IMG/VR virus record: IMGVR_UViG_3300011118_000031
Coordinates: 1 to 23,508 of that record
DNA: 23,508 nucleotides
Reading direction: 5' to 3' (one strand)
Source: a virus
Part shown: piece after piece, positions 152 to 19,621 of the stretch
Layout of the letters: each line of letters begins with the position of its first letter
Position numbering within the stretch: position 1 is the first letter of the stretch
Notes under the pieces: model-generated
The model's input: the letters and a program-made list of their open reading frames with translations, nothing else
Databases searched by the model: none
What the model was told of the DNA's origin: nothing
Program-made: the position numbers and the translations under genes

Positions 152-858
152 TATTGGTTTTCTCCTTCTTCTTCTTCTACCTCATGTTTTCCTAATTTCA
201 TTTTTGGTTGCCATTTAGCATTTTGAGTATCAGTAGCATAATATTTGTATGGGTCTTGTAAATTAATCATTTGCCAATCAGCCAACCCATTTTCAACGGC
301 TTCTTCTGCTGTAAAAATTTTATCATGGGAACACAATTCTTCAATTTTCTTTATGGTAATACGTGGTTTTGCCGCTTTCATTCGGCCAAAATATATTTCA
401 TACATTTGTTGTCGTAATTTACTAGCATATTTGGCCCAAGCTTCAACGGACTTACAAGTACCGCTGAGTTCTTCAAAACCATCGTGAATCATAAATGTGC
501 AGTGCGGAGCAACAATTCGGGAGTCACACCCTTGTACAATAATTGATCCCATGCTCATGGCATTGCCCCAGCAAATACCGTAGACGTGTGATGTTGATGC
601 CCTGATAGCATCGTATATGGCCATTCCGTGAAACCAGCATCCACCCAAATTGTTCATATGCACAAAAATAGGTTTAGAAGATATACTATTGAGATGGCAC
701 ATTGCTTTAATGAAAAATTCAGACATTTGACAATCAGTCCCAGATTCTCCTTCTCCACTTATCATTTCAGCATCGTGGGAACCAACATGAATTAATCGCT
801 GCGATGGTAAATAGCTATACTCAAACCATCTATCAATGTCTTCTTTAATGTACGCCAT
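151..858 (-). CDS. ClpP-like serine protease (S14 family)
   Basis: This 235-residue protein has the ClpP fold signatures in order. NNLGG (69-73) stands for the usual NSPGG oxyanion loop. The nucleophile Ser102 lies in GNAMSMGS, the catalytic His125 in PHCTFMIHDG, and the likely third residue is Asp179 in HDKIF, followed by TAEEAVENGLAD, which matches the family's sAxEAxxyGLiD. ClpP enzymes are self-compartmentalising peptidases. Phage copies act either as prohead proteases or as free proteases. A separate maturation protease is encoded in the head module here, and this gene lies in the opposite-strand operon, so a regulatory or host-directed role is more likely. The C-terminus is an acidic tail (EVEEEEGENQ). 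It overlaps the zinc protein gene by 14 nt upstream and the MazG gene by one base downstream. Confidence 0.85.
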   Translation of the reverse strand: MAYIKEDIDRWFEYSYLPSQRLIHVGSHDAEMISGEGESGTDCQMSEFFIKAMCHLNSISSKPIFVHMNNLGGCWFHGMAIYDAIRASTSHVYGICWGNAMSMGSIIVQGCDSRIVAPHCTFMIHDGFEELSGTCKSVEAWAKYASKLRQQMYEIYFGRMKAAKPRITIKKIEELCSHDKIFTAEEAVENGLADWQMINLQDPYKYYATDTQNAKWQPKMKLGKHEVEEEEGENQ

Positions 859-1171
859 TACCTGCCTCGTCGTTTAATGATTTAATACCACAATATTCAC
901 ATTTCGTTGAATTGCCTTCTTTTCCATAACAGAATGGACACAGTGTCCTAATCGGGGTGGAAACTACGTATAAAGTTAAAATTTTATCTATACACTGACT
1001 ACAAATAGAAATGCCTCCGAATATTTGCCGCATTCTATCTGTTGGCTTAAGTTTCCCGCACGTATCACACGGGAGTCTCTCTGTCGGTGATTCTCTGGAG
1101 TTTTTGAACCACCAACAGAAAATGTTCGAAATAGAGTTCGATAAAATCTTCTTTAATCCAACTATGGCCAT
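845..1171 (-). CDS. Small zinc-finger protein with four CxxC pairs
   Basis: This 108-residue protein carries four CxxC knuckles: CDTC (35-38), CSQC (about 57-60), CPFC (about 78-81) and CEYC (about 92-95). They suffice for two zinc sites of rubredoxin-knuckle or treble-clef type. No catalytic motif is visible. The function is unknown, and binding to nucleic acid or a protein partner is the usual inference for such proteins. The ATG at 1171 has GGAG about nine bases upstream (TACCGGAGATAATGG), which supports this start even though it makes the first 34 codons overlap the end of the upstream gene in another frame. The first zinc knuckle begins just where that gene stops. It overlaps the ClpP-like gene by 14 nt. 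Confidence 0.7.
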   Translation of the reverse strand: MAIVGLKKILSNSISNIFCWWFKNSRESPTERLPCDTCGKLKPTDRMRQIFGGISICSQCIDKILTLYVVSTPIRTLCPFCYGKEGNSTKCEYCGIKSLNDEAGNGVH

Positions 1172-1418
1172 CCATTATCTCCGGTATACTTCTAATTAAA
1201 TCAGTAAATCGAGGCATTTCTTTACATAGTGAATCTTGAATAGTTTTTTGTTTTTCGTATGTCCTGAAATCAAATATGACGGGTTTTCCAGTGACTCTTT
1301 TGATTCGTCCACGAAGACCACTCAGACTGCTGCTAGCTCTCTCTATGGATATTTGTTTACCAGAATCAATAAGTTCTGACCACTGGGTTAGTAATGTTCG
1401 TATATTAGTTTTGTTCAT
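1065..1418 (-). CDS. Hypothetical protein, 117 residues
   Basis: I do not recognise this protein. It is a mixed-charge, mostly helical sequence starting MNKTNIRTLLTQWSEL and ending LQRITDRETPV, with no cysteine motif, signal peptide or membrane segment. The ATG at 1418 is preferred over an in-frame TTG at 1481 because GAGAG lies about nine bases upstream, and because the ATG overlaps the last codon and stop of the AP2/HNH remnant (TTATGA), the arrangement seen between other genes of this operon. The longer reading would also run through sequence that encodes the remnant in another frame. Its last 107 nt overlap the start of the zinc-protein gene. Confidence 0.55.
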   Translation of the reverse strand: MNKTNIRTLLTQWSELIDSGKQISIERASSSLSGLRGRIKRVTGKPVIFDFRTYEKQKTIQDSLCKEMPRFTDLIRSIPEIMDGHSWIKEDFIELYFEHFLLVVQKLQRITDRETPV

Positions 1419-1629
1419 AATGAGTTCTCTCTTCGTTGATGCTTTTGGATTGTGGTAGTTAGGGCTTTTTCGATTGACCAATTCAATTTATATATTCTAT
1501 CATATAAAGTGAAATAATTAATTCCATATTCTTCAGCAAATTCAATTAAAAGCTGTGTTTTCCCAAAACCCTTCTAATAACCTTAAGTCTTCCGAATTTT
1601 TGTCCTATTAAATCGATTAGTTTAGGCAT
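1415..1629 (-). pseudogene. Internally deleted and frameshifted AP2/HNH-type homing gene remnant
   Basis: An ATG at 1629 overlaps the methyltransferase stop and starts MPKLIDLIGQKFGRLKVIRRV, the typical N-terminus of phage AP2-domain/HNH proteins (IGxKFGRLTVI). After 27 codons this frame stops at 1546. In the -1 frame the reading continues GKTQLLIEFAEEYGINYF and then TLYDRIYKLNWSIEKALT, the typical C-terminal tail of the same family (NGKTQTLxEWAxxxGI, then GWSxEKAL), ending with TGA at 1417-1415. The middle, which normally holds the zinc/HNH or AP2 core (roughly 100 or more codons), is absent. The two halves join at a GK pair in the sequence TTGGGAAAACAC. The zero frame there reads GGA AAA, so GGGAAAA is a potential -1 slippery heptamer. 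Loss by deletion is the simplest reading; a frameshifted mini-protein of about 70 residues is possible. Confidence 0.7.
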
Positions 1630-2350
1630 ATAAATTACCCATTTGCCTATGATCTAATTCTTTTTTAATTTGCTCAATACACGTTTCACTTATATCCGAA
1701 CCAATTGCATTTCTATTGGTCGCAATTGCAGCAAAAATTGAAGTTCCACTCCCTACAAATGGATCATAAACCGTTCCGTTTTCAGGACAATGTCCCAAAA
1801 TAATTCTTTCAATAACTTTTTGATTTATTTGATTAGGGAACCATGATCTTCTTTCTTTGAAATTCCCACAAATTCTGGGGAAATCCCAAATATTTTGTGG
1901 AATCTTGCCCATTGGAGATGCTCTGGAATCATTATATTTTAATTGACGATCACTTGGTATTTTGATATTTTCTGGAATCATCAAAGAATTATTTAACCAA
2001 TATATATTTCTATAGCATAAACTATATCTGTTATGACGAGATTGGTCCATTCCGAAATTAAATCTCCACAATAAGTGTTGGACTAATTCGATTCCTATAT
2101 CACCAATGGCATTCTCAACCTCTTTTGTCCAGCATTCATTAAAAAGAAAAAATATCGGACCTTTGGTCAATTCCGACATTTTCTTTAACCAAAGACGTAA
2201 TTTGGTCTCATATTCCCATTTGGGCATCTTATCTATATAATCTGGATATTTTTTGTCTAAACAATCAGGGATATCAGCTATAATTAAATCAACCCTCCCA
2301 ATTTGAGAAGCAGGAATATCTTCAAATGCGCCTTGTATCAATTTAATCAT
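1622..2350 (-). CDS. Beta-class DNA methyltransferase (N6-adenine/N4-cytosine type) with altered catalytic motif
   Basis: This 242-residue protein has the beta-class order of DNA amino-methyltransferases. The catalytic-motif region VDLIIADIPD comes first (20-29). A target-recognition stretch follows, with RHNRYSLCYRNIYW and NIWDFPRICGN. Near the C-terminus come WFPNQINQKVIERII (the usual HPxQKP region) and the SAM-binding motif I, DPFVGSGTSIFAA (196-208). Family members transfer a methyl group from SAM to DNA bases. The expected D/S-P-P-Y/F is replaced by D26-I-P-D29, which lacks the aromatic residue that stacks on the flipped base, so activity is uncertain. Start ATG 2350 has an AGGGGG ribosome site. 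Phage methyltransferases usually protect against host restriction. It is the first gene of the leftward operon and overlaps the AP2/HNH remnant. Confidence 0.8.
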   Translation of the reverse strand: MIKLIQGAFEDIPASQIGRVDLIIADIPDCLDKKYPDYIDKMPKWEYETKLRLWLKKMSELTKGPIFFLFNECWTKEVENAIGDIGIELVQHLLWRFNFGMDQSRHNRYSLCYRNIYWLNNSLMIPENIKIPSDRQLKYNDSRASPMGKIPQNIWDFPRICGNFKERRSWFPNQINQKVIERIILGHCPENGTVYDPFVGSGTSIFAAIATNRNAIGSDISETCIEQIKKELDHRQMGNLYA

Positions 2351-2506
2351 TTTTGCCCCCTAATTCAATCCTACACCCCATTATACGGGTAACCACCAAG
2401 TTTGTTCGAAAAAAAATTAAAAATAATGGAACGTTTTGTCAAAAATGCCCTCTCTCTATATACGGAGGGACGATTTTATCGGACATAGAATTAAAAGGTG
2501 GTGGAA
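2351..2506. promoter_or_regulatory. Divergent intergenic region between the two operons
   Basis: This gap separates leftward and rightward operons and contains no convincing ORF. On the minus strand a perfect TATAAT lies at 2385-2380 (CGTATAATGG), about 30 bases before the methyltransferase ATG, without a clear -35. On the plus strand TTGTCA at 2436-2441 is followed after 17 bases by TATACG at 2459-2464, a plausible weak host-type promoter for the sigma/terminase operon. A short inverted repeat, CCCTC and GAGGG, flanks the TATATA stretch (about 2448-2470). An A-rich run occupies 2409-2425. These assignments rest on consensus similarity only. Confidence 0.4.
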
Positions 2507-2686
2507 ATGAGCGACAAGAAAACTAAGATAAAGTGCTGTTTGACGACCCACGGGACGGAACAGGCTGACGCTAAGGCTGTTGATGATTTGGCCGTACCCG
2601 ATCCCGAATTAGCTATCGGAAAGCAAATAATTCAGGAAGCAACAGAAGAGGAATCTGATAGTGATAGTAAACCAAAACATTCTTGA
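2507..2686 (+). CDS. Short acidic hypothetical protein, 59 residues
   Basis: This small ORF begins MSDKKTKIKCCLTTHGTEQ and has a C-terminal half rich in Asp, Glu and Ser (ATEEESDSDSKPKHS). The ATG at 2507 is chosen over the in-frame GTG at 2498 because AAAGGTGG sits six bases upstream of it. It overlaps the GTG start of the sigma-like gene by 26 nt, so the two are probably translated together. No domain is recognisable. Small acidic proteins of this kind are often phage regulators or DNA mimics, but nothing here shows that specifically. Confidence 0.5.
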   Translation: MSDKKTKIKCCLTTHGTEQADAKAVDDLAVPDPELAIGKQIIQEATEEESDSDSKPKHS

Positions 2687-3212
2687 CGAAGCATATTCCA
2701 TTATTGAACGATTAGCTAAATCACGTAGTGCTAATGGTGCATTCGCCTATTATGAAAATAATGATGTCTATCAAGAAATATGGTGCATGTGCCTAGAAGC
2801 TCTGGAGCGATATGACTCCCAGATAGGTCCAATTGAAAATTATTTGGTTCGACACGTCACCAATCGTATCAAAAATCTAAAAAGAGATAGATATTTTCGT
2901 CCTGGTTCAGATATTTCCACTTCTGGTCTGGCTCGTGTCAGAATGAACTTAATAAATGCTTTACCACTTGATGGTGGCGATATTGCCGTACAAGGTGTGC
3001 TTTTGTGTTCTACAACGGCTAGTGTTGAACCTGTTGAATATATTTTATGTAATGAAACTTTAATATATATCCGCGAACAATTACCCGACGATTTATGTGA
3101 GTCATTCGAAGAATTAATTGGCAATAATAGGGTTCGTAGTCCACTGGTTGAAGAAGTACGCCAAAAGGTTGCTGAGATTTTGAGTGAAAGGGATAATAAT
3201 GTCTCAGGCTAA
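2661..3212 (+). CDS. Sigma-70 region 2-like protein, probable gp55-like late sigma factor
   Basis: This 183-residue protein has a sigma region-2-like core. NNDVYQEIWCMCLEALERYD (33-52) parallels the DLxQEGxxGLxxAxxxFD helix that contacts the RNA polymerase clamp. ENYLVRHVTNRIKNLKRDRY (59-78) parallels the basic -10-binding helices. No region 4 is evident, as in T4 gp55 (185 residues), which directs polymerase to late promoters made only of a -10-type element. The start is GTG at 2661, with AGAGGA about nine bases upstream. The C-terminal part is not recognisable. It overlaps the upstream ORF by 26 nt and the terminase-like gene by 14 nt. The repeated TGTATAAT elements without -35 boxes before the head and tail genes fit such a factor. 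The late-sigma role is inferred. Confidence 0.6.
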   Translation: MIVNQNILDEAYSIIERLAKSRSANGAFAYYENNDVYQEIWCMCLEALERYDSQIGPIENYLVRHVTNRIKNLKRDRYFRPGSDISTSGLARVRMNLINALPLDGGDIAVQGVLLCSTTASVEPVEYILCNETLIYIREQLPDDLCESFEELIGNNRVRSPLVEEVRQKVAEILSERDNNVSG

Positions 3213-4101
3213 ATATAAAAGATTATCCTCAAATCCCAAAGCGTTAAAGATTCTTGCTGATTGTGCGAAGCAGGGTCTAACGGATAAGAAAATTCAACAG
3301 CGATTGGCTCAAGAATGTGGATATCAATGGACAACTGATACGATTAGTAAGCGTCGTCGTCAAATGGGAGTGGTGAGAAATCAGGGCCAACCGACTAATG
3401 TTGATAGCCCAATGCTTACCATACCGCCCCATGGACTTTCTGATCCCGAAAAGGCTAACTGGTTTAGAGATCAATTCAAAAAAACACATTTATACACGAC
3501 TATTCAAAAACAGTTTGAGCCTGAAGAAGTATCTACTTATTTGGAAGATTTTGGACTTTTGTGTTGTCAATTTGAAGATATTGTAATTTCTGAGTTTATG
3601 CAAGTCGATGATTTTTTAAAACACAGAATTCTCATTAATAGACAATTAATCTTGGCTCGTTCAGTTCAAACACAAATTGCCGATTTACAAGAATGGTTTA
3701 TTTTGAACCCCAAGGTTGAGGGTGAACATCAAGATACTATTAAGTTTCGTATTGTGCAACAAAGGCAATTAGATAATAAGTATAGATATCTTAAAATAGC
3801 TAATGATCGATATGATGCTCTTGTGAAAGAACGACAAAAAATTTATAGTAGTTTGGCCGCAACACGTAGAGATCGTTTGGATGAGTTGAAGGGTGGTAAA
3901 GAAACATTTTTTGAGTTGGTGAGTCAAATGCAGCATTCACAGGACGAACGAGATAGGCAGGGGAGATTGGCAGAATTGACTAAACTGGCTTCGGAAGATA
4001 TTAAAGAAGAATTCCGTAAGCCGACTCAGTTTCCAGACGGAAGTGTTGAGCCTATTATTATGGATGATCTCACATCCTTTGATATCGACGATGAAGATTA
4101 G
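3199..4101 (+). CDS. Probable small terminase subunit (HTH plus helical domain)
   Basis: This 300-residue protein starts at ATG 3199, preferred over GTG 3184 because AAAGGG lies six bases upstream. Residues about 12-57 form a predicted DNA-binding helix-turn-helix segment (KILADCAKQGLTDKKIQQRL, then TTDTISKRRRQMG). The middle (about 95-240) is largely helical and charged, with coiled-coil character (NKYRYLKIANDRYDALVKER), as expected for an oligomerising small terminase. The C-terminus is acidic (FDIDDED). Small terminases recognise the packaging site and stimulate the large terminase. The assignment rests on architecture and position before the large terminase gene, not on a diagnostic motif. 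Another DNA-binding packaging or regulatory role is possible. Confidence 0.45.
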   Translation: MSQAKYKRLSSNPKALKILADCAKQGLTDKKIQQRLAQECGYQWTTDTISKRRRQMGVVRNQGQPTNVDSPMLTIPPHGLSDPEKANWFRDQFKKTHLYTTIQKQFEPEEVSTYLEDFGLLCCQFEDIVISEFMQVDDFLKHRILINRQLILARSVQTQIADLQEWFILNPKVEGEHQDTIKFRIVQQRQLDNKYRYLKIANDRYDALVKERQKIYSSLAATRRDRLDELKGGKETFFELVSQMQHSQDERDRQGRLAELTKLASEDIKEEFRKPTQFPDGSVEPIIMDDLTSFDIDDED

Positions 4102-5229: not shown

Positions 5230-5473
5230 TCTGTGGAAACGAGTGGCGGGTGTTACTATGCCTATTACAAGAAAGAGGGTTAAATATGGTCGTAATTGGC
5301 TGTGTTTGTGTGGTAGCGGAAAGAAATATAAAAATTGTTGTATAAATGAGATCAACGACTTAACTGCTTCAGACGATAATGCTAATGTCGAAACATTGTC
5401 AGAGGACGTTCAAAAAATGATTGATGTTCAGCGTGAATCACAAGGAAATGAGAGGATAAAGGAAAATGGATAA
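5201..5473 (+). CDS. SEC-C motif zinc protein, 90 residues
   Basis: This small protein carries a clear SEC-C zinc motif near residues 31-46: YGRNWLCLCGSGKKYKNCC, the C-x-C-x8-C-C pattern first described at the C-terminus of SecA. The rest is polar and acidic (LSEDVQKMIDVQRESQGNER). SEC-C motifs usually mediate binding to a protein or ribosome. The reading frame is open further upstream, but the sequence there overlaps glycosyltransferase coding sequence. ATG 5201 has GAAAGAG about nine bases upstream. An internal ATG at 5258 is an alternative start that keeps the motif. It overlaps the dehydratase start by 8 nt. A role as adaptor for the neighbouring sugar enzymes is possible but unsupported. 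Confidence 0.7.
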   Translation: MITKPSERRNLWKRVAGVTMPITRKRVKYGRNWLCLCGSGKKYKNCCINEINDLTASDDNANVETLSEDVQKMIDVQRESQGNERIKENG

Positions 5474-7637
5474 GACAGTACTTATCACAGGAATAACTGG
5501 TCAAGATTCTAGTTACCTTTCGGAATTATTGCTCGACAAAGAATATAAAGTCTATGGAGTAATCCGACGATCCTCGGTTAATACGACAGAACGCATTGCT
5601 CACTTGTTGGATAATCCGAAATTCGAATTGGTGGAAGGTGATGTTACTGATGCGGTATGTATGCATCGATTGATTTCTGGTATTCAGCCGGATGAAGTTT
5701 ATAATTTGGCAGCGATGTCAGTGGCTGCTGATTGTATTTGTCCGATTATGACTGCACAAGGAATTCAGCACAGGACCCTAGAATCATTGTGGAATCAGCA
5801 AGTTAAAAAGAAGAAAAATATCAGGGTTGAAAAGGTTGATGATATAGATGTAGAAGTGATTGACTTGCCTCAAGATACACAATTAAAATCACTTGGATTC
5901 TGGAATGGAATGGGTACATGGTTTAAAATTAGACAAATTTCTAGACATCGCTGGAATGATAAAATTGCTATTTGTAAGCAGAAATTTGGTTCAATCAAAG
6001 TTACACCCAATCATTCTTTGCTCGATGTTACAGGCAATCTGTGCCAGCCTCATGAAAATAAATGGTTGTTGAATGTTAGAAAAATTAATTATTCTTTTGA
6101 TCAACAAAATATCGACCATCTCGAATTAACTATTCCCATCAACCACACAGAATGTGATGATAATTATGTATGGGCTAAAAGTAGTACCACTAAATTGACA
6201 AAAAATGTTAGTGGGGAAAGTCTCACAGCGCTGTGTCGATTTATTGGTGCATATATCGCAGAGGGGAGTGTTTCTTATAACAAGGCAAATGGTGGATATA
6301 TTACTAGTATTGCCAACAACAATCTTGAATGGCTCAAAAGTCTTGAAAAAGATTTGAAGCAATTTTTCGTTGGTTCTTGTTGTTATTCACAAACCAAAAA
6401 GGAAGAACATGACAATACATGGAATTTACAGATGAGTTCAAAATCTTTGTATTTATTTCTTAAAAACCATTGTGGACAGGGAAGTAATAATAAGCGATTG
6501 CCGACGTGGTTTACGAAGCTAGGTATCGATAATCTAGCTGCATTATTCGAGAAAATGGTGGAAGGCGATGGGTGCATCAAGGAATGGAAAAATTCTAAAT
6601 CCATAAGATATGGAACAACATCATATGAGTTAGCATGTCAACTTAGTCTTTTATTTACGATGCTTGGGCTGGACTATACAGTGAACCACCATGAGTATGA
6701 TAATGAAAAATGGAGTGATGTGTATAATTTTAGGACATGTCTATCTTATGCTGCAAATCAGGGGGAAAATGGTAAAAGTGTTGAATTTGTAGATTATGAT
6801 GGATTTGTTTATGATATATCTGTTGATGAAGTTTCCAATTTTGCTGTTGGCGTTGGTAATATTGTGGTTCACAATTCACATGTTGGCACTTCGTTTGATC
6901 AGCCGATTACTACATGCCATATTAATGCCCTCGGACCCCTTCACATATTAGAAGCAATTCGTCAATCGTCACCTAAAAGTAAATTTTATCAAGCCTCGAC
7001 ATCAGAACTTTGGGGAGATACAACCATTGCACCACAAGACGAAAATACACCGTTTAATCCCAATTCACCGTATGCTGTGGCAAAGCTTTATGCACATCAC
7101 ATCGTAGGACTTTATCGTCGGGCTTATGGTATTTTTGCCTGCGCAGGTATCCTGAACAATCACGAGTCCGAGCGTCGAGGGGAGACATTTGTAACCAGAA
7201 AGATTACCAAATATGTTGCGACATTACAAAACTGGATTGATACACATGATGGATTCCCGCAGAAAGATGTTGATGTTCCTCCATTGGCTTTGGGTAATAT
7301 CGAAGCGAAGAGGGATTGGAGTCATGCTGAAGACATGGTTCGTGGTATGTGGTTAATGATGCAACAGGATGTACCTGACGACTATGTTCTGGGTTCAGGC
7401 AAAACCCATTCTGTAAGAGAATTGTTAGAAGTGGCTTTTGGGTTAATTGGTTTAGACTACAAGGACTATGTAATTGTTGATCCGAAGTTTTATCGACCCG
7501 TAGATGTTAATCTTTTACATGCTGATCCGACTAAAGCCAGAGAAATACTTGGTTGGGTGCCAACGATTACTTTCGGAGAGATGATAGATCGCATGGTTCA
7601 AAGTGACTACAAGGCGTTGATCGAATGCCCCGTTTAA
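5466..7637 (+). CDS. gmd: GDP-mannose 4,6-dehydratase containing an intein
   Basis: The precursor has 723 residues. Removing the intein (85-470) leaves 337 residues, close to the usual length of GDP-mannose 4,6-dehydratases, which convert GDP-mannose to GDP-4-keto-6-deoxymannose, precursor of GDP-fucose, rhamnose or perosamine. Extended short-chain dehydrogenase marks are intact: the NADP motif GITGQDSSYLSELL (residues 9-22), GVIRRSS, EVYNLAA joined to SHVGTSFDQP after splicing, the active-site STSELWG, and the catalytic Y-x-x-x-K in SPYAVAKLYAHHI. The family glutamine of NLAAQSH is methionine here. No reductase or epimerase to complete a sugar is visible in the window. It lies two genes after a glycosyltransferase, and its end overlaps the ERCC4 nuclease gene by 13 nt. 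AAAGGA precedes the ATG. Confidence 0.92.
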   Translation: MDKTVLITGITGQDSSYLSELLLDKEYKVYGVIRRSSVNTTERIAHLLDNPKFELVEGDVTDAVCMHRLISGIQPDEVYNLAAMSVAADCICPIMTAQGIQHRTLESLWNQQVKKKKNIRVEKVDDIDVEVIDLPQDTQLKSLGFWNGMGTWFKIRQISRHRWNDKIAICKQKFGSIKVTPNHSLLDVTGNLCQPHENKWLLNVRKINYSFDQQNIDHLELTIPINHTECDDNYVWAKSSTTKLTKNVSGESLTALCRFIGAYIAEGSVSYNKANGGYITSIANNNLEWLKSLEKDLKQFFVGSCCYSQTKKEEHDNTWNLQMSSKSLYLFLKNHCGQGSNNKRLPTWFTKLGIDNLAALFEKMVEGDGCIKEWKNSKSIRYGTTSYELACQLSLLFTMLGLDYTVNHHEYDNEKWSDVYNFRTCLSYAANQGENGKSVEFVDYDGFVYDISVDEVSNFAVGVGNIVVHNSHVGTSFDQPITTCHINALGPLHILEAIRQSSPKSKFYQASTSELWGDTTIAPQDENTPFNPNSPYAVAKLYAHHIVGLYRRAYGIFACAGILNNHESERRGETFVTRKITKYVATLQNWIDTHDGFPQKDVDVPPLALGNIEAKRDWSHAEDMVRGMWLMMQQDVPDDYVLGSGKTHSVRELLEVAFGLIGLDYKDYVIVDPKFYRPVDVNLLHADPTKAREILGWVPTITFGEMIDRMVQSDYKALIECPV
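5718..6875 (+). mobile_element. Intein with LAGLIDADG endonuclease in GDP-mannose dehydratase
   Basis: This in-frame insertion of 386 residues splits the conserved NLAA(Q/M)-SHV motif. Block A starts at Ser1 (SVAADCICPIMTAQG). Block B is VTPNHSLLD with its T-x-x-H. Two endonuclease motifs follow, LCRFIGAYIAEGSV and LAALFEKMVEGDGC. Block F is FVYDISVDEVSNFAV, and block G is VGNIVVHN before Ser+1. Joining residue 84 to 471 rebuilds NLAAMSHVGTSF, very close to the family consensus, which fixes both splice points. Ser at position 1 and +1 is compatible with class 1 splicing through ester intermediates. The endonuclease motifs retain acidic residues, so it may still home. Alternatively, Cys90 or Cys92 could be considered as residue 1, but neither restores the host motif. 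Confidence 0.9.
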
Positions 7638-8170
7638 TTTTGCCGACATATACTGTCATTCGAGATACCCGAGAACAAGAAGGGCATGGGTGGACCTTCA
7701 ATGCGCATACTCCAGAGCATCGTCCTCCACGGTGTGACGGAATGACCGTTGATACTCTTCAAACTGGTGACTATAGCCTTGTTGGTTACACTGATATTTT
7801 TGCTATTGAGCGCAAGTTTGCCTTTTCTGAATTGTGGGGTAATTATAGTAGTCAAAAACGACCTGCGTTTGAGGCTGAAATGGAAAGAATGTCGCAGCTT
7901 AAACATGCTTATATTATTATCGAATCTCAATTTACGCCCGACATTATGGAACTATCTCCACCTCAATTTGCTAAAGGTGTTCCAGGTAAGGCGTTGGTGA
8001 GGTGGCTGATGTACTTAACGGTTAAATATGGTGTCAATATTATTCCAGCCGGAGCTTGCGGTAAGCAAATAGCCCAGATGATTTGTGAAGAAGTTGTGCG
8101 TGTTGAAAAGGATCGATGGGTTCATCAGAAACCAAAAAGCAAATCGAGGGAGGATTGTCTTGGGTGCTAA
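7625..8170 (+). CDS. ERCC4-type (XPF family) nuclease
   Basis: This 181-residue protein is an ERCC4 nuclease domain almost from end to end. It has VIRDTREQ (11-18), TGDYS (47-51), and AIERK (60-64) within D-I-F-A-I-E-R-K-F-A-F-S-E-L, corresponding to the family's GDxxxERKxxxD active site. These are followed by RPAFEAEMERM and a strand, AYIIIES. XPF/Mus81-type domains cut branched or flapped DNA. No helix-hairpin-helix is present, as in other short phage members. It may process recombination or packaging intermediates, since it directly precedes and overlaps the large terminase gene by 11 nt. A link to intein homing or repair is another possibility. AAGGCG, a weak ribosome site, precedes ATG 7625. 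Confidence 0.8.
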   Translation: MPRLILPTYTVIRDTREQEGHGWTFNAHTPEHRPPRCDGMTVDTLQTGDYSLVGYTDIFAIERKFAFSELWGNYSSQKRPAFEAEMERMSQLKHAYIIIESQFTPDIMELSPPQFAKGVPGKALVRWLMYLTVKYGVNIIPAGACGKQIAQMICEEVVRVEKDRWVHQKPKSKSREDCLGC

Positions 8171-11100
8171 GGTTACATTAGATGAGTTATTACACGGGGA
8201 CCAAGGGAAACATAAATTCCTATTTCCTTTCCGTGATCGCGTACCTACAATTCGTAAGCATATTTTTACCGACCTTAAACAATCGAAAGACCCATTAGAT
8301 CAAACTATTATTAGTAAGATGTTAGATATTAACTATATTGGCTGGACTGCCAAGGCGATATTGGGAATTGATCTTTTTCCTATTCAAATTGCTATATTAC
8401 AAATTATGTGGAAAACACCTTTTCCAATGTTGGTAGCATCACGTGGTGGCTCGAAGACTTATTTGCTTGCAGTATATGCCGTCCTTCGGGCACTATTTGA
8501 TCCTGGTTCTAAGATTGTTATTGTTGGTGCCGGCTTAAGGCAGGCTAGGTTAGTGTTTGGTTATATTGAAACAATTTGGTCCAATTCACCCATATTAAGA
8601 AGTATTGTTGGTGGTGGTAAAAAAGCTGGTCCGCGTCAAAGTGTTGACCTTTGTTATTTTAAGATTGGTGACAGTATAGTGACAGCCCTCCCGTTGGGGG
8701 ACGGATGTGTCAATTGTGAGACACTTATTACTTATCAAGATTGTTTTGGCACGATTTCTGATGATCAAGCGGATGGCCAAACGGAAAAAACTATTATTAA
8801 TCGTTCCAGAAATATTTGGGGTAATAAAAAATTCAGATTGAGTGATGAATCATATTGCAATGGCATGGCCAAAACTAAAAAGATTACAACTAGTAAAAAT
8901 TTTGAAATTGAGGGAACATTTAACCATAAGATTAAAGTATTGCGTGACGCCAAGGTCCAATGGGTAAGGCTCGATGAAATTGTTCTAGGTGATAGGGTGT
9001 TGATCGATCGTTCACGGCGATGGCACAATGGTTCTAATGATGTTACTGTAGACGAAGGATATGCCCTTGGGCTTCTAACAGGAAATGGCTGTTTTACATA
9101 TCCAGATCGGCTTTCTTTTTCTACGGCTGATGTTGAATTACTGGAAGCGATGAAATGTATAGGTTCTTTTGTTAAGAGAAAAAATAATCCATATGAATAT
9201 TTATATTATGGAAATAAAAAAAGACGAAATTTCTTAAATAAATTTGGAGTGAACCCCGTATTATCATATGAAAAAACAATTCCTACCTCTATCATGTCGG
9301 CGAGTCGTGATGTAATGTCTGCTTTTCTTCGGGGTTTGTTTGATAGTGATGGTGGAGTTCAACAAATTTTTCGCCCAGATAAGCAAGCTTCTGGAGGAAT
9401 GATTCGTCTGACCAGTACGAGTAAAACAATGCTTCAGCAAGTTCAGTTTATTTTATTACATTATGGTATTATTTCGTCTATTAAAGAGAAGAAAAATTAT
9501 GAAAGGTCTCGCCACCAATGTTATGAATTGAATATATGTGGTAGGAATATAAAATTATTTTGGAAAAACATTGGATTTGGGCTCAGTAGGAAGCAGTGTA
9601 TTTTAGATAAGATTGTTGATAGTAAAAAAGATCGGCAAGGTCGTGATGATGTTGTACCCGGAATCAATCATTTGATGTGTGGTATTAGGGATGATTATAG
9701 TCATAATTTAGCAGGAAAAGAGAGAGTTGCTTTTAACACCACAATGTCTCGTATTCGTAAGGGACAACATGGTAGATGGCAGTTACAAAGATTTTTGAAA
9801 GTTTTTGGCCATATAAAAGATGAGAGATTGGATACAATTCGTTCCTTGGGTAGTGATGATATCTATTACGATGATGTAACGGGTATTGTAGATGGTGAAT
9901 GTGTTACATTCGACGTTCATGTGCCGGAAGATCATGAATATTGTGCCAATGGGTGGCACAGTCATAATACAAAAATTCGCGGTTTCAGAGCAACAACAGT
10001 TCTGGTTGATGAATTTGCTAGTGTACCTGAAGATGTTTTTGATATCGTAGTCCGTGGCTTCGCCTCTACAACTAAGACACCAGTTGAAGAAGCTAAAAGA
10101 ATAGCTTTTGATAAGCAATTGATTCAAATGGATATTCCAGAAGATGTTAAACAACAGATTGTTCTTGATGTCAAACAAAAACAGGGTAACCAAATTATTT
10201 ATTGTGGTACTGCCTATTATGCTTTCAATCATTTTGCTAAAAAATATCAAATGTGGCAAGATATCATTCGGAGTAAAGGTGATCCTTCTATTATTGCAAA
10301 TATTTTTGGTGGAGAGAATTTAGTTCCTGACAATTTTGATTATCGAGATTATGCTGTAATACGTATTCCACACACTCATTTGCCAGATGGTCTATTAGAT
10401 CAAAGGCAACTTGCTCACGCTAAAGCCACATTACCACGAAATATATTTCTCATGGAGTTCGGGGGAGTGTTCGTTAAGGATTCGGACGGGTTTTACCCTC
10501 GTAGTCTTATAGAAGGATGTACCGTTGGACCTAATAAGCCAATAGAGACACCCGATGGTGCGGTAACTTTTACTCCATTAATGAGGGGGCAATCTAAGCG
10601 TAAATATGTGATGGGAATTGATCCAGCAGCAGAAAGAGATAATCTTGCAATTACAATGACAGAGGTTTGGCAGAACCATTATCGTGTAGTATACTGTTGG
10701 GTTGTTAACAAGAAGGAATTTCTAAAACGGAAAAAGCAAGGACTAATTACTGACGATGATTACTATGCTTACTGTTGTTCGAGAATTCGTGAGCTTGTTC
10801 GATTATTTAATCCGATGCGTATCGAAATGGATAGTCAAGGTGGTGGTTATGCTATATCAGAAATGCTTCGGAATAAAAAATTACTTGATATAGATAATGG
10901 CGATTTCCCAATTTATGAAGTTATAGATTTTGACGATCCTAAATCAACAGACGGTGAAACAGATGGACGACACATTTTACATCTTGTCAAGCAAAGTACA
11001 GAATTTAATCAAGAAGCCAATATAGCTTTACACAAAAGTTTAGAAACCCATACTTTACTATTCCCAGCTTTTGATAGTGTTAAGATGTATGCCGCACTTG

Positions 11101-11519
11101 AAGCAGAGAAATCTATGGGTGTTATTTTTGATACCTATGAAGAAAATGTGTTTAATATTGAAGAGTTAAAAAACGAACTTTGTACAATTCAAATGAGCGA
11201 AACTGCAACAGGCAGAGAAAAGTTTGACACTCCTCAAGTAGTTAGTCCGGGGGCGGTAGAAGGTCGGGCCAAGAAGGGTAGGCTTCGCAAAGACAGATAT
11301 ACGGCCCTCATGTTATCTCATAAATATATTTATGATACTGAAATAGCTCCCGATGAGAACATCGATTATGAAGATGTGGCCGGGAATATTAAAAAACGAG
11401 AGAAACCCGGTAAGAATGAAGCCTTTTACCGAGGAGAAGGAGTAGGACGTATGCGCAATGCCAAAGAAGCTCGTCAAGGCATTATTTTTAAGGCTGTGAA
11501 AAAGAATAAGCGGATTTAA
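8160..11519 (+). CDS. Terminase large subunit containing an intein
   Basis: The precursor has 1119 residues and the spliced protein 698. The ATPase half has Walker A ASRGGSKT (93-100) and, after the intein, Walker B TTVLVDEFAS with Asp617-Glu618 (196-197 after splicing). The nuclease half has the RNase H-like acidic motifs GIDPAAERD (Asp821, 400 spliced), IEMDSQGGGYAISEM and a late KDRYTALML. The protein drives ATP-powered packaging at the portal and cuts the concatemer. The chosen start is TTG 8160, because GAGGGAGG at 8146-8153 lies six bases before it and no ATG with a ribosome site exists. The longer in-frame extension from 8085 lies inside the ERCC4 gene. The C-terminus is basic and lysine-rich. 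Confidence 0.92.
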   Translation: MGAKVTLDELLHGDQGKHKFLFPFRDRVPTIRKHIFTDLKQSKDPLDQTIISKMLDINYIGWTAKAILGIDLFPIQIAILQIMWKTPFPMLVASRGGSKTYLLAVYAVLRALFDPGSKIVIVGAGLRQARLVFGYIETIWSNSPILRSIVGGGKKAGPRQSVDLCYFKIGDSIVTALPLGDGCVNCETLITYQDCFGTISDDQADGQTEKTIINRSRNIWGNKKFRLSDESYCNGMAKTKKITTSKNFEIEGTFNHKIKVLRDAKVQWVRLDEIVLGDRVLIDRSRRWHNGSNDVTVDEGYALGLLTGNGCFTYPDRLSFSTADVELLEAMKCIGSFVKRKNNPYEYLYYGNKKRRNFLNKFGVNPVLSYEKTIPTSIMSASRDVMSAFLRGLFDSDGGVQQIFRPDKQASGGMIRLTSTSKTMLQQVQFILLHYGIISSIKEKKNYERSRHQCYELNICGRNIKLFWKNIGFGLSRKQCILDKIVDSKKDRQGRDDVVPGINHLMCGIRDDYSHNLAGKERVAFNTTMSRIRKGQHGRWQLQRFLKVFGHIKDERLDTIRSLGSDDIYYDDVTGIVDGECVTFDVHVPEDHEYCANGWHSHNTKIRGFRATTVLVDEFASVPEDVFDIVVRGFASTTKTPVEEAKRIAFDKQLIQMDIPEDVKQQIVLDVKQKQGNQIIYCGTAYYAFNHFAKKYQMWQDIIRSKGDPSIIANIFGGENLVPDNFDYRDYAVIRIPHTHLPDGLLDQRQLAHAKATLPRNIFLMEFGGVFVKDSDGFYPRSLIEGCTVGPNKPIETPDGAVTFTPLMRGQSKRKYVMGIDPAAERDNLAITMTEVWQNHYRVVYCWVVNKKEFLKRKKQGLITDDDYYAYCCSRIRELVRLFNPMRIEMDSQGGGYAISEMLRNKKLLDIDNGDFPIYEVIDFDDPKSTDGETDGRHILHLVKQSTEFNQEANIALHKSLETHTLLFPAFDSVKMYAALEAEKSMGVIFDTYEENVFNIEELKNELCTIQMSETATGREKFDTPQVVSPGAVEGRAKKGRLRKDRYTALMLSHKYIYDTEIAPDENIDYEDVAGNIKKREKPGKNEAFYRGEGVGRMRNAKEARQGIIFKAVKKNKRI
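8706..9968 (+). mobile_element. Intein with LAGLIDADG endonuclease in terminase large subunit
   Basis: This in-frame insertion of 421 residues (183-603 of the precursor) lies between Walker A and Walker B. Block A begins Cys1-VNCETLITYQD. A block-B-like EGTFNHKIKVL follows. Two endonuclease motifs are seen, ALGLLTGNGC and FLRGLFDSDGG. Block F is VTFDVHVPEDHEYCA, and block G is NGWHSHN followed by Thr+1. Splicing rejoins LPLGDG to TKIRGFRATTVLVDEF, matching the uninterrupted LGDGxKIRG motif of terminases. The two inteins of this window share architecture but differ in first residue (Cys versus Ser), +1 residue (Thr versus Ser) and sequence, so they are probably independent acquisitions. Between the second endonuclease motif and block F is an extra region (GINHLMCGIRDDYSHNL) of unknown role. 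Confidence 0.9.
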
Positions 11520-16026: not shown

Positions 16027-17052
16027 ATGAAGCGTAATATTAGAAAACCAACTCCTGAGCAAGTTGAACTTCTAAAGCGAACCGGTTCGCCTAATAAGGG
16101 CGAAGCTCTGGAAGCGATGCATTCTCTAGCTCAGGCTCTACAAGTTCCTTTACGGTCAGCATTGCTCAATGGCGATATTTTGGGCGGAATCTTCGCACCA
16201 GAAGTTCTCGATCCAAGTGCAACCGCTGAGTATCCGCTGGATTTCTATCAGACAGCAGATGAAAAAGATTATGTGGCATATATGATTCCTAGCGAAGGCG
16301 CATTGCCACTAAGAAATATCACCGGTGACGCTGTAACAGTTAGTACCTATGAGGTTGGTAATGCGATTGACTGGCCACTGAAGTATGCAAGAACTGCACG
16401 GTGGGATATAGTTGCTCGTGCAATGCAGGTACTTGAGGCTGGTTTTGTTAAGAAGATGAATACTGATGGGTGGCGTGTTCTTATAGCAGCAGCCGCAGGT
16501 CGTACCGACTATAATGGTGGTGCTCCACTGGTATACGATAGTGCTGCAACGGCTGGTCAATTTACGAAGCGTCTCGTTTCTCTAATGAAGACGACTATGA
16601 TTCGCCTGGCTGGTGGAAATAGTGCATCAGTTAATCGGGGTCGCTTAACAGACATATATCTGAGTCCAGAAGCTCTAGAAGATATTAGAGAATGGGATCA
16701 TGACGAAGTTGATGACGTAACTCGTAGAGAGATTTTCACTGCTGGTGACGGTGGTGGCCCAATGGCTCGTATCTACGGCGTTAATCTACATACGTTAGAT
16801 GAGCTTGGTGTCGGTCAAGAATTCCAGACTTATTTCGCAACACTAGGTGTTAATATGGGCACAAGCGATGAGGAAATAGTTATTGGCCTTGATCTGTCAA
16901 AGGGTGATTCCTTCGTGATGCCGATTAAGCTCGAATTAGAAATCTATGAAGATGATAATCTGCATAGACGCAGACGGGCTGGGTTCTACGGTTTTCAGGA
17001 GCATGGATTTGCTAGCCTCGACGGAAAAAGGTGTCTCTTGGGATCGTTCTAA
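16027..17052 (+). CDS. Major capsid protein (HK97 fold)
   Basis: This 341-residue protein looks like an HK97-fold major capsid protein. It has an N-terminal arm with basic residues (1-45), an E-loop-like region with YPLDFYQTADEKDYVAYMIP, the long spine helix region about 125-165 (ARWDIVARAMQVLEAGFVKK), and the A-domain strand/helix set with TDIYLSPEALEDIREW and MARIYGVNLHTLDELG. It ends RRRRAGFYGFQEHGFASLDG. The strong GGGGGT ribosome region, its place before a double terminator and more G/C-rich codons than its neighbours fit high expression. It would be cut or organised by the upstream protease/scaffold. No intein or truncation is seen. Confidence 0.82.
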   Translation: MKRNIRKPTPEQVELLKRTGSPNKGEALEAMHSLAQALQVPLRSALLNGDILGGIFAPEVLDPSATAEYPLDFYQTADEKDYVAYMIPSEGALPLRNITGDAVTVSTYEVGNAIDWPLKYARTARWDIVARAMQVLEAGFVKKMNTDGWRVLIAAAAGRTDYNGGAPLVYDSAATAGQFTKRLVSLMKTTMIRLAGGNSASVNRGRLTDIYLSPEALEDIREWDHDEVDDVTRREIFTAGDGGGPMARIYGVNLHTLDELGVGQEFQTYFATLGVNMGTSDEEIVIGLDLSKGDSFVMPIKLELEIYEDDNLHRRRRAGFYGFQEHGFASLDGKRCLLGSF

Positions 17053-17064
17053 ACTATTGTAAAC

Positions 17065-17084
17065 AAAGAACTTATGTTCTTTTT
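17065..17084 (+). terminator. First intrinsic terminator after capsid gene
   Basis: AAAGAAC (17065-17071) and GTTCTTT (17076-17082) form a 7-bp stem with a TTAT loop, followed by two more T. It lies 12 bases after the capsid stop. On its own it is a modest hairpin. Confidence 0.6.
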
Positions 17085-17091
17085 GATAATC

Positions 17092-17130
17092 AAAGAGGGA
17101 AAAGGATAAAATCTTTTCCCTCTTTTTATT
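17092..17130 (+). terminator. Second, strong intrinsic terminator after capsid gene
   Basis: A 13-bp perfect stem pairs 17092-17104 (AAAGAGGGAAAAG) with 17113-17125 (CTTTTCCCTCTTT) across an eight-base loop, followed by TTATTTG. It ends the head operon before the free-standing HTH-HNH gene. The stem is A/U-rich at its base and symmetrical, so it might also work for leftward transcription. Confidence 0.9.
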
Positions 17131-17170
17131 TGAAAATTTTTATAAAATCAGGAACAAACTGCTGCGTAGA

Positions 17171-17179
17171 GTGTATAAT
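17171..17179 (+). promoter_or_regulatory. Putative late promoter before HTH-HNH-Mom gene
   Basis: GTGTATAAT at 17171-17179 is the same core as the portal and protease copies, followed here by AGT. It lies after the double terminator and only about 15 bases before the chosen ATG at 17195. This suggests a separate transcript with a very short leader. Confidence 0.55.
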
Positions 17180-17194
17180 AGTTCTGGACTTGAT

Positions 17195-19123
17195 ATGACA
17201 CCAGATATTAACAAATGTTCCGACTTGCATATTGCTATATTTTTGTATAGCAGGGGTTTTTCTACCCATAAAATTGGTGAGATATTTGGTGTTAGTGCCA
17301 ATGTTATTATAAGACATTTTCGAAAATCTAATATTCAGTTAAGAAATCCTGGTAGAATATCTAAAAAATTAAATTTTGATTTAATTAAAAATGATTATAT
17401 TAATGATAAAATGCCTATCCGAAAGATAGCCCACAAATACGGTGTTAGTTCGTCAGTTATTCGTAAAATTTTATCCAAAAATGGCATTAAATTAGTAGGC
17501 AATAGGGGGCTTCAGTCTGTTCATATTGATAAAGATAAACTATATGATTTATATGTTGTTCAACATAACAGCATCCAACAGTGTGCAGCCTATTTCCATG
17601 TTCACTCAACCACTATTAAGCGTAAATTGGATGAAATGAAAATTGATGTCCATAAATCTGATTATCATGATATTAATACGAGGGTAACAAATGAACAACT
17701 TTTGGATTTGTATGTCAACCAACACAAGACTATTCGTCAATGTGCTAAGGTTTTTAAAGTTAGTCGAGCCACTCTTAGAAAAAAATTAAATGAGATGGGA
17801 ATTAAAGTTCGGCCAAAGGGTCACGGAATTGATATATCAACAACATCCCAAGAAATAATTATAGACTTATATTGGAATAAGAGATTTACTATTAACGCAA
17901 TATCTGAATACCTTGATATTAGTCCATATTTAGTCAGACGAGAATTAATTAAGTCGGAACGTGGTACACGATCTAGTTCTGACAAAATGAGATTGTTTTA
18001 TGGTACGGAGTCAATATCAGATGATCAATTAATTTATTTACATGATATTTTAGGATGGACATGTTATAAAATTGCTAGATACTTTAATAGAGAAGAGAGT
18101 TTTGTAAGTCACAGATTTCAATCAATAAACAAAAGGGCTCGCAAGCCTATTGGTAAATATAATCATCGCTGGAAAGGCGGGATAACAGCAATCGACGACC
18201 ACATTAGGCGATGCAACCAATATATAAAATGGAGAAAAGGCCGCTTTGCCAAAAATGATTATTTTAGTCAAATCTCTAATGGGCGTGGAACATTAAATTG
18301 TCACCATATTTATCCTTTTAGGGTTATTTTACAGTCATCCATGACCAAACATAAACCACTCCTGGACGAATATAAAAGATTAGCTATGGCAAATGATGAT
18401 CGCTTTTTTGATCTAGAAAATGGTTTAGTTATTACGGACGAAGAACACAATAAAATAGAAAGGGGTAAGCTAGAGAATGCTCACCCCTGGTGGAAAATTT
18501 GGCGAGCATACCCTGACTTTGCAATTAAACAAAACAATTTAGATTCCAGCGATTTTCAATTATTTGATAATAATGGTCAATTATCACCTAATGAATATAC
18601 CATACAAATTTCAACAGCAAAAGAAATACGGCAAATAATTAGATATGAGCATTATTTAGGTACCGTTCCCGGATCGAAACTTATTCTTGTTGCAAAAAGA
18701 GGTGGTGTGATTATCGGAATTGCGACTTTTGGTACTGGGACTAATAAGCATATTGCCAAAGATACTTGGGAATTAACTCGCTTATGTATTCCATTCTATG
18801 TTGTAAAACCTTTCGCTTGTGAATTTTTGCATAAATGCTGTGAATATATCAAAAATCAATGTCCCCAAATTAAAAAACTAATGGCATTTGCGGATTCTTC
18901 TGTGGGACACAATGGCGGTGTTTATAGAATGGCCAAATGGGATAAGGCAGGGAAAACACAACCAAGTTATGCCTATTTTGATCCTACAACATTTAAACTT
19001 AGACATAAAGCATCGTGTCGGCGAATTAAGGGTGTAGATAAAACTGAACGCGAATTAGCCCAAGAGCGAGGGTGGATTCGTATTCCGTTGGGCCATAAAT
19101 ACAGATATACTTTAATTCTATAA
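17195..19123 (+). CDS. Six-HTH array - HNH nuclease - Mom-like domain fusion
   Basis: This 642-residue protein has three parts. Six helix-turn-helix units of about 45 residues lie near 10-50, 60-103, 110-155, 163-208, 217-262 and 275-320; the clearest are IQQCAAYFHVHSTTIKRKLDEM and IRQCAKVFKVSRATLRKKLNEM. An HNH nuclease follows: HRWKGGITAIDDHIRR introduces it, CHHIYPF (369-375) gives the His pair, and ENG (Asn409) and EEHNK (His418) complete H-N-H. The usual zinc CxxC pair is missing (YFSQISNGRGTLN). Residues about 468-642 resemble the GNAT-fold Mom family of DNA modifiers: WELTRLCIP, FADSSVGHNGGVYRMAKW and a final HKYRYTL. A free-standing homing element is likely. ATG 17195 is chosen because GTG 17171 lies within the promoter. 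Confidence 0.65.
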   Translation: MTPDINKCSDLHIAIFLYSRGFSTHKIGEIFGVSANVIIRHFRKSNIQLRNPGRISKKLNFDLIKNDYINDKMPIRKIAHKYGVSSSVIRKILSKNGIKLVGNRGLQSVHIDKDKLYDLYVVQHNSIQQCAAYFHVHSTTIKRKLDEMKIDVHKSDYHDINTRVTNEQLLDLYVNQHKTIRQCAKVFKVSRATLRKKLNEMGIKVRPKGHGIDISTTSQEIIIDLYWNKRFTINAISEYLDISPYLVRRELIKSERGTRSSSDKMRLFYGTESISDDQLIYLHDILGWTCYKIARYFNREESFVSHRFQSINKRARKPIGKYNHRWKGGITAIDDHIRRCNQYIKWRKGRFAKNDYFSQISNGRGTLNCHHIYPFRVILQSSMTKHKPLLDEYKRLAMANDDRFFDLENGLVITDEEHNKIERGKLENAHPWWKIWRAYPDFAIKQNNLDSSDFQLFDNNGQLSPNEYTIQISTAKEIRQIIRYEHYLGTVPGSKLILVAKRGGVIIGIATFGTGTNKHIAKDTWELTRLCIPFYVVKPFACEFLHKCCEYIKNQCPQIKKLMAFADSSVGHNGGVYRMAKWDKAGKTQPSYAYFDPTTFKLRHKASCRRIKGVDKTERELAQERGWIRIPLGHKYRYTLIL

Positions 19124-19190
19124 GTTCATTTATCTAACTCATATCTCAAAGGCTGGGGCTGTATGTGCAGTTTTCGGTCTTCTCTTTTGG

Positions 19191-19198
19191 TGTATAAT
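19191..19198 (+). promoter_or_regulatory. Putative late promoter before two-HTH gene
   Basis: TGTATAAT at 19191-19198 lies 39 bases before the ATG at 19238. It has the same core as the other three copies, but the upstream bases are TTTTGG rather than CAATTG. The stretch 19124-19237 holds no other recognisable element. Confidence 0.5.
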
Positions 19199-19237: not shown

Positions 19238-19621
19238 ATGCCTTTATCAGACGCGAAAGTAATAGAACTATACTCTCAAGGCGAAAGTTGTGCTGCGGTG
19301 GCTCGCTTAGATGGTTGTAGTGAAACATCAATGTATAATAGATTCAAATCTCTTGATATTAAAATGCGAAATCGATCAGAAGCAAACCAAATTTTTCCAG
19401 ATTCTATTTTTATAATACTATACAACGTGGGCCTTTCTACTTCACAAATTGGAAGACTTTTGGGTGTTGATTCTTCGACAGTCACAAAACGACTGCATAC
19501 TCTTAAGTTCCCCTTGCGGTCTCGCAATATCGCGTCTCGCATCCGATACACTGAAGATGAATTTAAACAACATTTTATGATACCCGGTATTTTGAATCAA
19601 CTTGTTGAATTAGTTAGATAA
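19238..19621 (+). CDS. Small two-HTH protein, relative or remnant of the HTH array gene
   Basis: This 127-residue protein contains two helix-turn-helix units: DAKVIELYSQGESCAAVARL with SETSMYNRFKSLDIKMRNRS, and FIILYNVGLSTSQIGRLLGV with DSSTVTKRLHTLKFPLRSRN. The second is close to the first unit of the neighbouring fusion protein (GFSTHKIGEIFGVSANVIIR, then HFRKSNIQLRN). It ends with RYTEDEFKQHFM and a short tail, where related homing proteins continue into a nuclease domain, so it may be a truncated homing gene or a small regulator kept for DNA binding. ATG 19238 has a GGGGA ribosome site; the longer in-frame reading from 19163 starts upstream of the promoter. GGAGGA after its stop serves the next gene. 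Confidence 0.55.
   Translation: MPLSDAKVIELYSQGESCAAVARLDGCSETSMYNRFKSLDIKMRNRSEANQIFPDSIFIILYNVGLSTSQIGRLLGVDSSTVTKRLHTLKFPLRSRNIASRIRYTEDEFKQHFMIPGILNQLVELVR

Follow-up and report, generated by a model that had tools for sequence, protein, structure and literature searches.

An HTH array, an HNH nuclease domain and a Mom-like domain fused in a candidate homing-type cassette beside a putative phage capsid gene

Why would a nuclease and a DNA-modifying domain be joined in one chain next to a phage capsid gene? This question is raised by a viral DNA of 23,508 nucleotides (positions 1 to 23,508 of IMG/VR record IMGVR_UViG_3300011118_000031; hereafter the window). An original prediction, made from the letters of this DNA, described a fusion of six HTH units, an HNH nuclease and a domain resembling phage Mu Mom, and proposed either a homing element with built-in protection or a single-chain restriction-modification-like system. 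Here, the parts of the protein, its genomic slot and its relatives are analyzed. The coordinates are collected in Table 1, and L numbers denote individual loci of relatives.

Table 1. Positions in the window of the fusion gene, its domains and the borders of its slot.
Feature	Positions	Strand	Basis
Putative major capsid protein, upstream neighbour	16027..17052	+	Structural-block position; weak PHROG major head protein match, E 0.005-0.007
Capsid gene terminator, left slot border	17065..17125	+	Weak hairpin 17065-17082, strong hairpin 17092-17125
Inserted cassette, approximate extent	17131..19187	+	Occupied versus empty alleles, above all L046 versus L045
GTGTATAAT, promoter-like motif of the cassette	17171..17179	+	5 in the window versus 0.32 expected
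HTH6-HNH-Mom fusion gene, 642 aa	17195..19123	+	ORF; start from homologue alignment
Six tandem HTH units	17216..18124	+	Pfam HTH families; AlphaFold2 helices, pLDDT about 70-80
HNH nuclease domain, residues 326-435	18170..18499	+	hhalign to sister HNH; invariant residues; beta-beta-helix order in model
HNH key residues H370/H371; N409; H418	18302-18307; 18419-18421; 18446-18448	+	Invariant
Mom-like GNAT domain, residues 468-642	18596..19120	+	PF25680 E 8e-17; 8bv8 Foldseek E 8e-9, VIA Z 14.1; alignment
GTGTATAAT and start of the downstream gene's conserved leader, right slot border	19190..19198	+	Kept in empty and occupied relatives
Two-HTH gene (HTH2)	19238..19621	+	ORF, Pfam

Architecture of the fusion protein

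The reading of the protein in three parts proved correct, and the alignment of homologues bears out the gene coordinates 17195-19123 given originally. A longer frame opens at GTG 17171. The start was placed at ATG 17195, because the homologue alignment begins there and GTG 17171 falls within the promoter-like motif GTGTATAAT. An assembly artefact was ruled out, since the same fusion was seen again in independent contigs.

The N-terminal arm contains the six predicted HTH units. In the AlphaFold2 model, three-helix units are located at residues 8-44, 61-95, 113-147, 166-200, 219-253 and 276-310, and many Pfam HTH families match the array. The number of units varies among the fusions from about three (L046 and L047) to about eight (L115), as judged by eye. 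In NCBIfam, the HTH matches were all far under the cut-offs, apart from one generic sigma-70 superfamily match in L005. PADLOC gave weak matches for the cassette, to HTH only, and the cassette was therefore not assigned to a known defence system.

The HNH domain was assigned primarily by profile comparison. The isolated domain matches no Pfam HNH family, and a PDB sequence search with HNH profiles returned nothing significant. In profile comparison, hhalign matched the domain to the HNH of sister cassettes with probability 99.2 and E 9e-20, and these sister domains match PHROG HNH families with a best E of 4.6e-7; PHROG_8446 HNH is matched by the full-length protein (E 5e-30), in part via its HTH units. 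The PDB fold-search listing was filled by the GNAT domain, and the order of secondary structure (beta-beta-helix) agrees with the profile-based assignment in a model that is of low confidence in parts. In a second model, the H/N/H residues lie on the expected strand, loop and helix, with only moderate local confidence. A REase fold is not supported for this nuclease by profile or by secondary-structure order. H370/H371, N409 and H418 are invariant in all aligned relatives, so that the catalytic residues, which might have been buried or absent, are present and conserved. The zinc CxxC pair is missing, as the original prediction noted, but it is missing from all sister cassettes as well and its absence is thus a family trait, not a novelty.

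The C-terminal domain scores 62.1 bits against Pfam Mom (PF25680), well above the cut-off of 27.1 (E 8e-17), and matches the Mom-like PHROG_1384 at E 1e-21. It models as the predicted Mom fold and not as an unrelated one. The best PDB match of the model is phage Mu Mom (8bv8), with a VIA Z of 14.1 over 166 residues compared with 12.7 for the next GNAT protein; in Foldseek, 8bv8 (E 8e-9) leads the next GNAT (E 3e-5) by more than three orders of magnitude. The positions of the HY, ELxR, FAD and Y motifs are shared with Mu Mom: H486-Y487, R529, D567 and Y577 correspond to Mu H58-Y59, R111, D149 and Y159 (241-aa numbering). The fusion domains were aligned with Mom of Mu, Mom of phiEf11 and 20 other standalone homologues; the HY pair, the Arg of ELxR, the Asp of FAD and the Tyr of GxxY are kept in all 33 Mom domains.

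Compared with Mu Mom, which is a standalone protein of 241 aa, the domain is fused to HTH-HNH and exhibits certain differences. YRM replaces YQA, a Cys lies near S124, and the C-terminal PYPK tail is missing from the fusion Mom domains. The title of PDB entry 8bv8 calls the S124A mutant of Mu Mom inactive. The S124 position is Cys in the window and most fusions, Ser in L054 and L055 and Ile in L115, a placement made uncertain by a two-residue gap nearby and by the 8bv8 numbering. Because of this variation, the chemistry of the domain, which represents a divergent Mom-like subfamily, may differ from that of Mu. No methyltransferase domain was found in the fusion protein with Pfam or NCBIfam. 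A separate gene on the minus strand of the window (1622-2350) encodes an N6/N4 DNA methyltransferase (PF01555, E 2e-24) with ADIPD instead of the usual DPPY.

The slot downstream of the capsid gene

The gene had been described as standing between a double terminator and the neck genes with a promoter of its own. Of the two hairpins, the 14-bp hairpin at 17092-17125 is solid and the first, at 17065-17082, is weak. Placement after the terminator holds, whereas direct adjacency to the neck genes does not, as HTH2 (19238-19621) intervenes. The promoter claim is confirmed at the level of the motif: GTGTATAAT stands just upstream of the fusion gene and is overrepresented in the window. Four of its five copies are just upstream of genes (11528, 14042, 17171 and 19190, before the portal-region, protease-region, fusion and HTH2 genes, respectively) and one is inside an intein. 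The motif seems to be the promoter type of the phage's structural genes, used also by the cassette, and TATAAT is retained upstream of most homologues. The junctions are alike across relatives: on the left is the capsid terminator, and on the right is the downstream gene's conserved TGGTGTATAAT promoter. Whether the slot is empty or occupied, a terminator-like element lies ahead of it.

HTH2 probably acts as a DNA-binding module that targets this locus, because it is fused at the same place in relatives to GIY-YIG (L058 1011-1805) or to NUMOD4-HNH_3 (L035 7521-8285). The CapR/HEG link of ICP1 satellites is a similar case.

With the capsid protein, 80 loci of relatives were fetched, and in 35 of them the genes that follow were typed. 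HTH-HNH-Mom occupies the slot in 10, HTH-HNH-HTH in nine, HTH-HNH in three and GIY-YIG in one; the remaining 12 are empty, with roughly 90-215 bp between the flanking genes. Genomes with and without the gene at this locus, which the original prediction proposed to look for, therefore both exist, together with others that carry different nuclease cassettes. At least 15 state changes are required on the capsid tree. The empty L045 groups with its sister L046, which has a Mom cassette, at 100/99 support, and the capsid proteins of L027, L024 and L028 are 97-98% identical while their three cassettes differ.

The cassettes are also modular. L024 combines the HTH arm seen in the Mom cassettes (55% identical over 166 aa, E 1e-71) with the other HNH subtype and has no Mom, which indicates a shared arm and an exchanged enzyme part. 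The arm of L029 is that of the HTH-HNH-HTH cassettes. Mom is present in 11 of 11 cassettes with its associated HNH subtype, which was never seen without it, and in none of the 12 other HNH cassettes. A query that matched all six Mom-cassette records tried detected no Mom in 15 relatives whose slot is empty or holds a different cassette, some of them contigs of 119-168 kb; Mom thus travels with the cassette. No clear co-conversion tract was observed in the flanks of L046 versus L045 or of other pairs. Every pair shows reduced identity close to the slot, and this dip is not diagnostic since same-type pairs have it too.

T4-like phages and ICP1 exhibit a homing-endonuclease hot-spot pattern like that of this slot (PMC2988022, PMC10448857). 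On such comparative evidence, the slot is a hot spot of homing endonucleases, and there is good support for a homing-type cassette that is mobile and modular. The homing-element half of the original prediction is consequently upheld by the empty sites, the alternative nucleases, the sister genomes that differ in carrying the gene, and the occurrence of one member in an unrelated phage.

Other carriers and selection on the fusion

The same architecture occurs in at least 11 other virus records, with 40-100% identity. Ten fusions are at the capsid slot (L023, L027, L030, L034, L044, L046, L047, L049, L054 and L055), of which L023 is nearly identical to the window and belongs to the same record as L001. 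The eleventh, L115, is elsewhere, in a phage record of 137 kb in which no relative of this capsid protein is detectable. There (226-3516), an HTH-LAGLIDADG gene directly abuts the HTH-HNH-Mom gene, and another HNH-like gene is nearby. In L049, a single in-frame TAG (6954-6956) separates the HNH domain from an otherwise intact Mom domain, which suggests that this gene is either split or decaying.

The HNH and Mom motif residues are invariant among the fusions. For L054 and L055, the only pair unsaturated at silent sites, dN/dS is 0.06 for HNH and 0.06 for Mom, and both domains are thus retained under purifying selection. The HTH array of the same pair has a dN/dS of 0.21, and the reading arm evolves faster than the two enzymatic parts.

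Among isolated phages, a protein search found phiEf11 standalone Mom as the sole related protein, and this capsid protein was found in none. Bacterial and archaeal genomes contained small Mom genes only, with the HTH-HNH fusion in none of 22 loci. About 70 other viral Mom genes, taken from the best 80 of 550 candidates, are all small ORFs without an HTH-HNH part; further HTH-HNH-Mom fusions may exist among the viral Mom candidates.

Other features of the window and its relatives were also recorded. A GDP-mannose 4,6-dehydratase-like gene (5466-7637) is broken by an intein with a LAGLIDADG domain, and a probable terminase large subunit (8085-11519) contains a LAGLIDADG intein. L002 has an extra gene (677-1294) between the portal-region and protease-region genes that is absent from the window; by eye it looks like an HNH/AP2-type homing endonuclease, with no Pfam match.

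Homing, marking and the competing explanations

The usual explanation of why homing endonucleases do not attack the genome that carries them is that insertion of the element, or linked sequence changes, destroy the target. In the present case, insertion leaves the right-hand promoter region unchanged, and the target is therefore possibly not destroyed by the cassette. We tentatively favour the reading that the gene is a free-standing cassette for a homing-type endonuclease, which has gained a base-modifying domain of the Mom type. Within such a cassette, Mom probably serves self-protection. The full proposal of a self-immunising homing endonuclease, in which a shared HTH arm directs both HNH and a Mom acyl- or carbamoyl-transferase to one target so that unmarked alleles are destroyed and the own allele is marked, is put forward with more reserve, as a possibility that is open to real doubt.

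We infer cleavage, homing, DNA modification with its chemistry, and self-protection, and the cycle may be pictured as follows. The cassette would be transcribed from its own copy of GTGTATAAT, along with the structural genes. The HTH array would dock the protein onto a long DNA target, where HNH would cut or nick the DNA of a co-infecting relative that lacks the element. Repair would then place a copy of the cassette in the slot, which lies after the capsid terminator and before the next promoter. Mom, tethered in the same chain, would put a small acyl-type group on adenines at or near the target in its own genome, and the DNA so marked would be shielded from its own nuclease. The intact right-hand promoter region and the tie between Mom and one HNH subtype are consistent with such shielding. 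Conversely, to our knowledge free-standing homing enzymes normally need no modification domain, and Mom proteins that stand alone protect DNA with no nuclease attached. The apparent replacement of Mu S124 in most fusions and the flanks without a clear co-conversion tract also speak against the homing-plus-Mom reading.

The explanation that survives best besides this one, although we consider it rather unlikely, is that HNH homes while Mom merely rides on the nuclease as a general anti-restriction payload against host restriction enzymes. Mu Mom acts in this manner (PMC6483171), the promoter motif is that of structural genes, and Mom would be a gain as cassette-free relatives have none detected. 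However, Mom is held in one chain with a DNA-reading arm and is separated only by the single TAG of L049, and its restriction to one HNH subtype suggests a functional pairing. It is improbable that the protein is a restriction-modification-like phage weapon instead of a homing enzyme, with Mom marking phage DNA and HNH destroying host DNA or superinfecting phages: in its favour are the published prediction of this kind for the Mom-REase fusions of jumbo phages (PMC7824862) and the analogous domain pairing, whereas the fixed slot, the swaps with GIY-YIG and Mom-less HNH, and presence or absence between sisters fit homing better, and long HTH arrays imply a rare target. Very unlikely is a site-directed DNA modifier or late-transcription regulator in which HNH only binds or nicks and delivers Mom to chosen sites, as might be suspected from an HNH without zinc cysteines, a model of low confidence in parts, and the adjoining small HTH gene and late promoters, because the HNH residues are invariant, the HNH domain is under purifying selection and the sister HNH cassettes lack the zinc cysteines too.

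The preferred reading, a homing-type cassette with an acquired Mom domain, can be set beside several known systems. Cutting and marking in one polypeptide with a common reading arm is familiar from Type IIG enzymes. Compared with these and other Type II enzymes, the marker of the fusion is of the acyltransferase fold (GNAT Mom) rather than a SAM methyltransferase, and the gene is phage-borne and homing-like. The T4 Seg and Mob enzymes and the ICP1 T5orf172 HEGs likewise combine a nuclease with separate DNA-binding modules, are intergenic and sporadic between relatives, often lie near essential genes and have swapped modules (PMC2988022; PMC10448857). The fusion differs from them in that its arm is an HTH array and its C-terminus is Mom, and a homing endonuclease with a base-modifying domain was not found described in those two papers. 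Nuclease and Mom are also joined in one protein in the jumbo-phage Mom-REase fusions, for which both cutting and protection were predicted (Iyer et al., 2021; PMC7824862), and a Mom-nuclease fusion is thus known before as a prediction, with a nuclease of the REase fold. In contrast, the present fusion has HNH, a six-unit HTH arm and a homing slot in which it is swapped with Mom-less nucleases. No description of this form at a homing slot turned up in the literature searched, and a mention in earlier Mom papers is possible.

If the proposal is true, chemical self-immunity would be another route by which homing enzymes spare their own genome. Homing and restriction-modification enzymes would then lie on one continuum, with an evolutionary bridge that uses a non-methyl mark. 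The site choice and chemistry of Mom are still poorly understood, and the fusion would provide a Mom enzyme with a defined reading arm. The close relatives form a natural series, from the empty slot through arm and HNH to arm, HNH and Mom, which offers ready-made controls.
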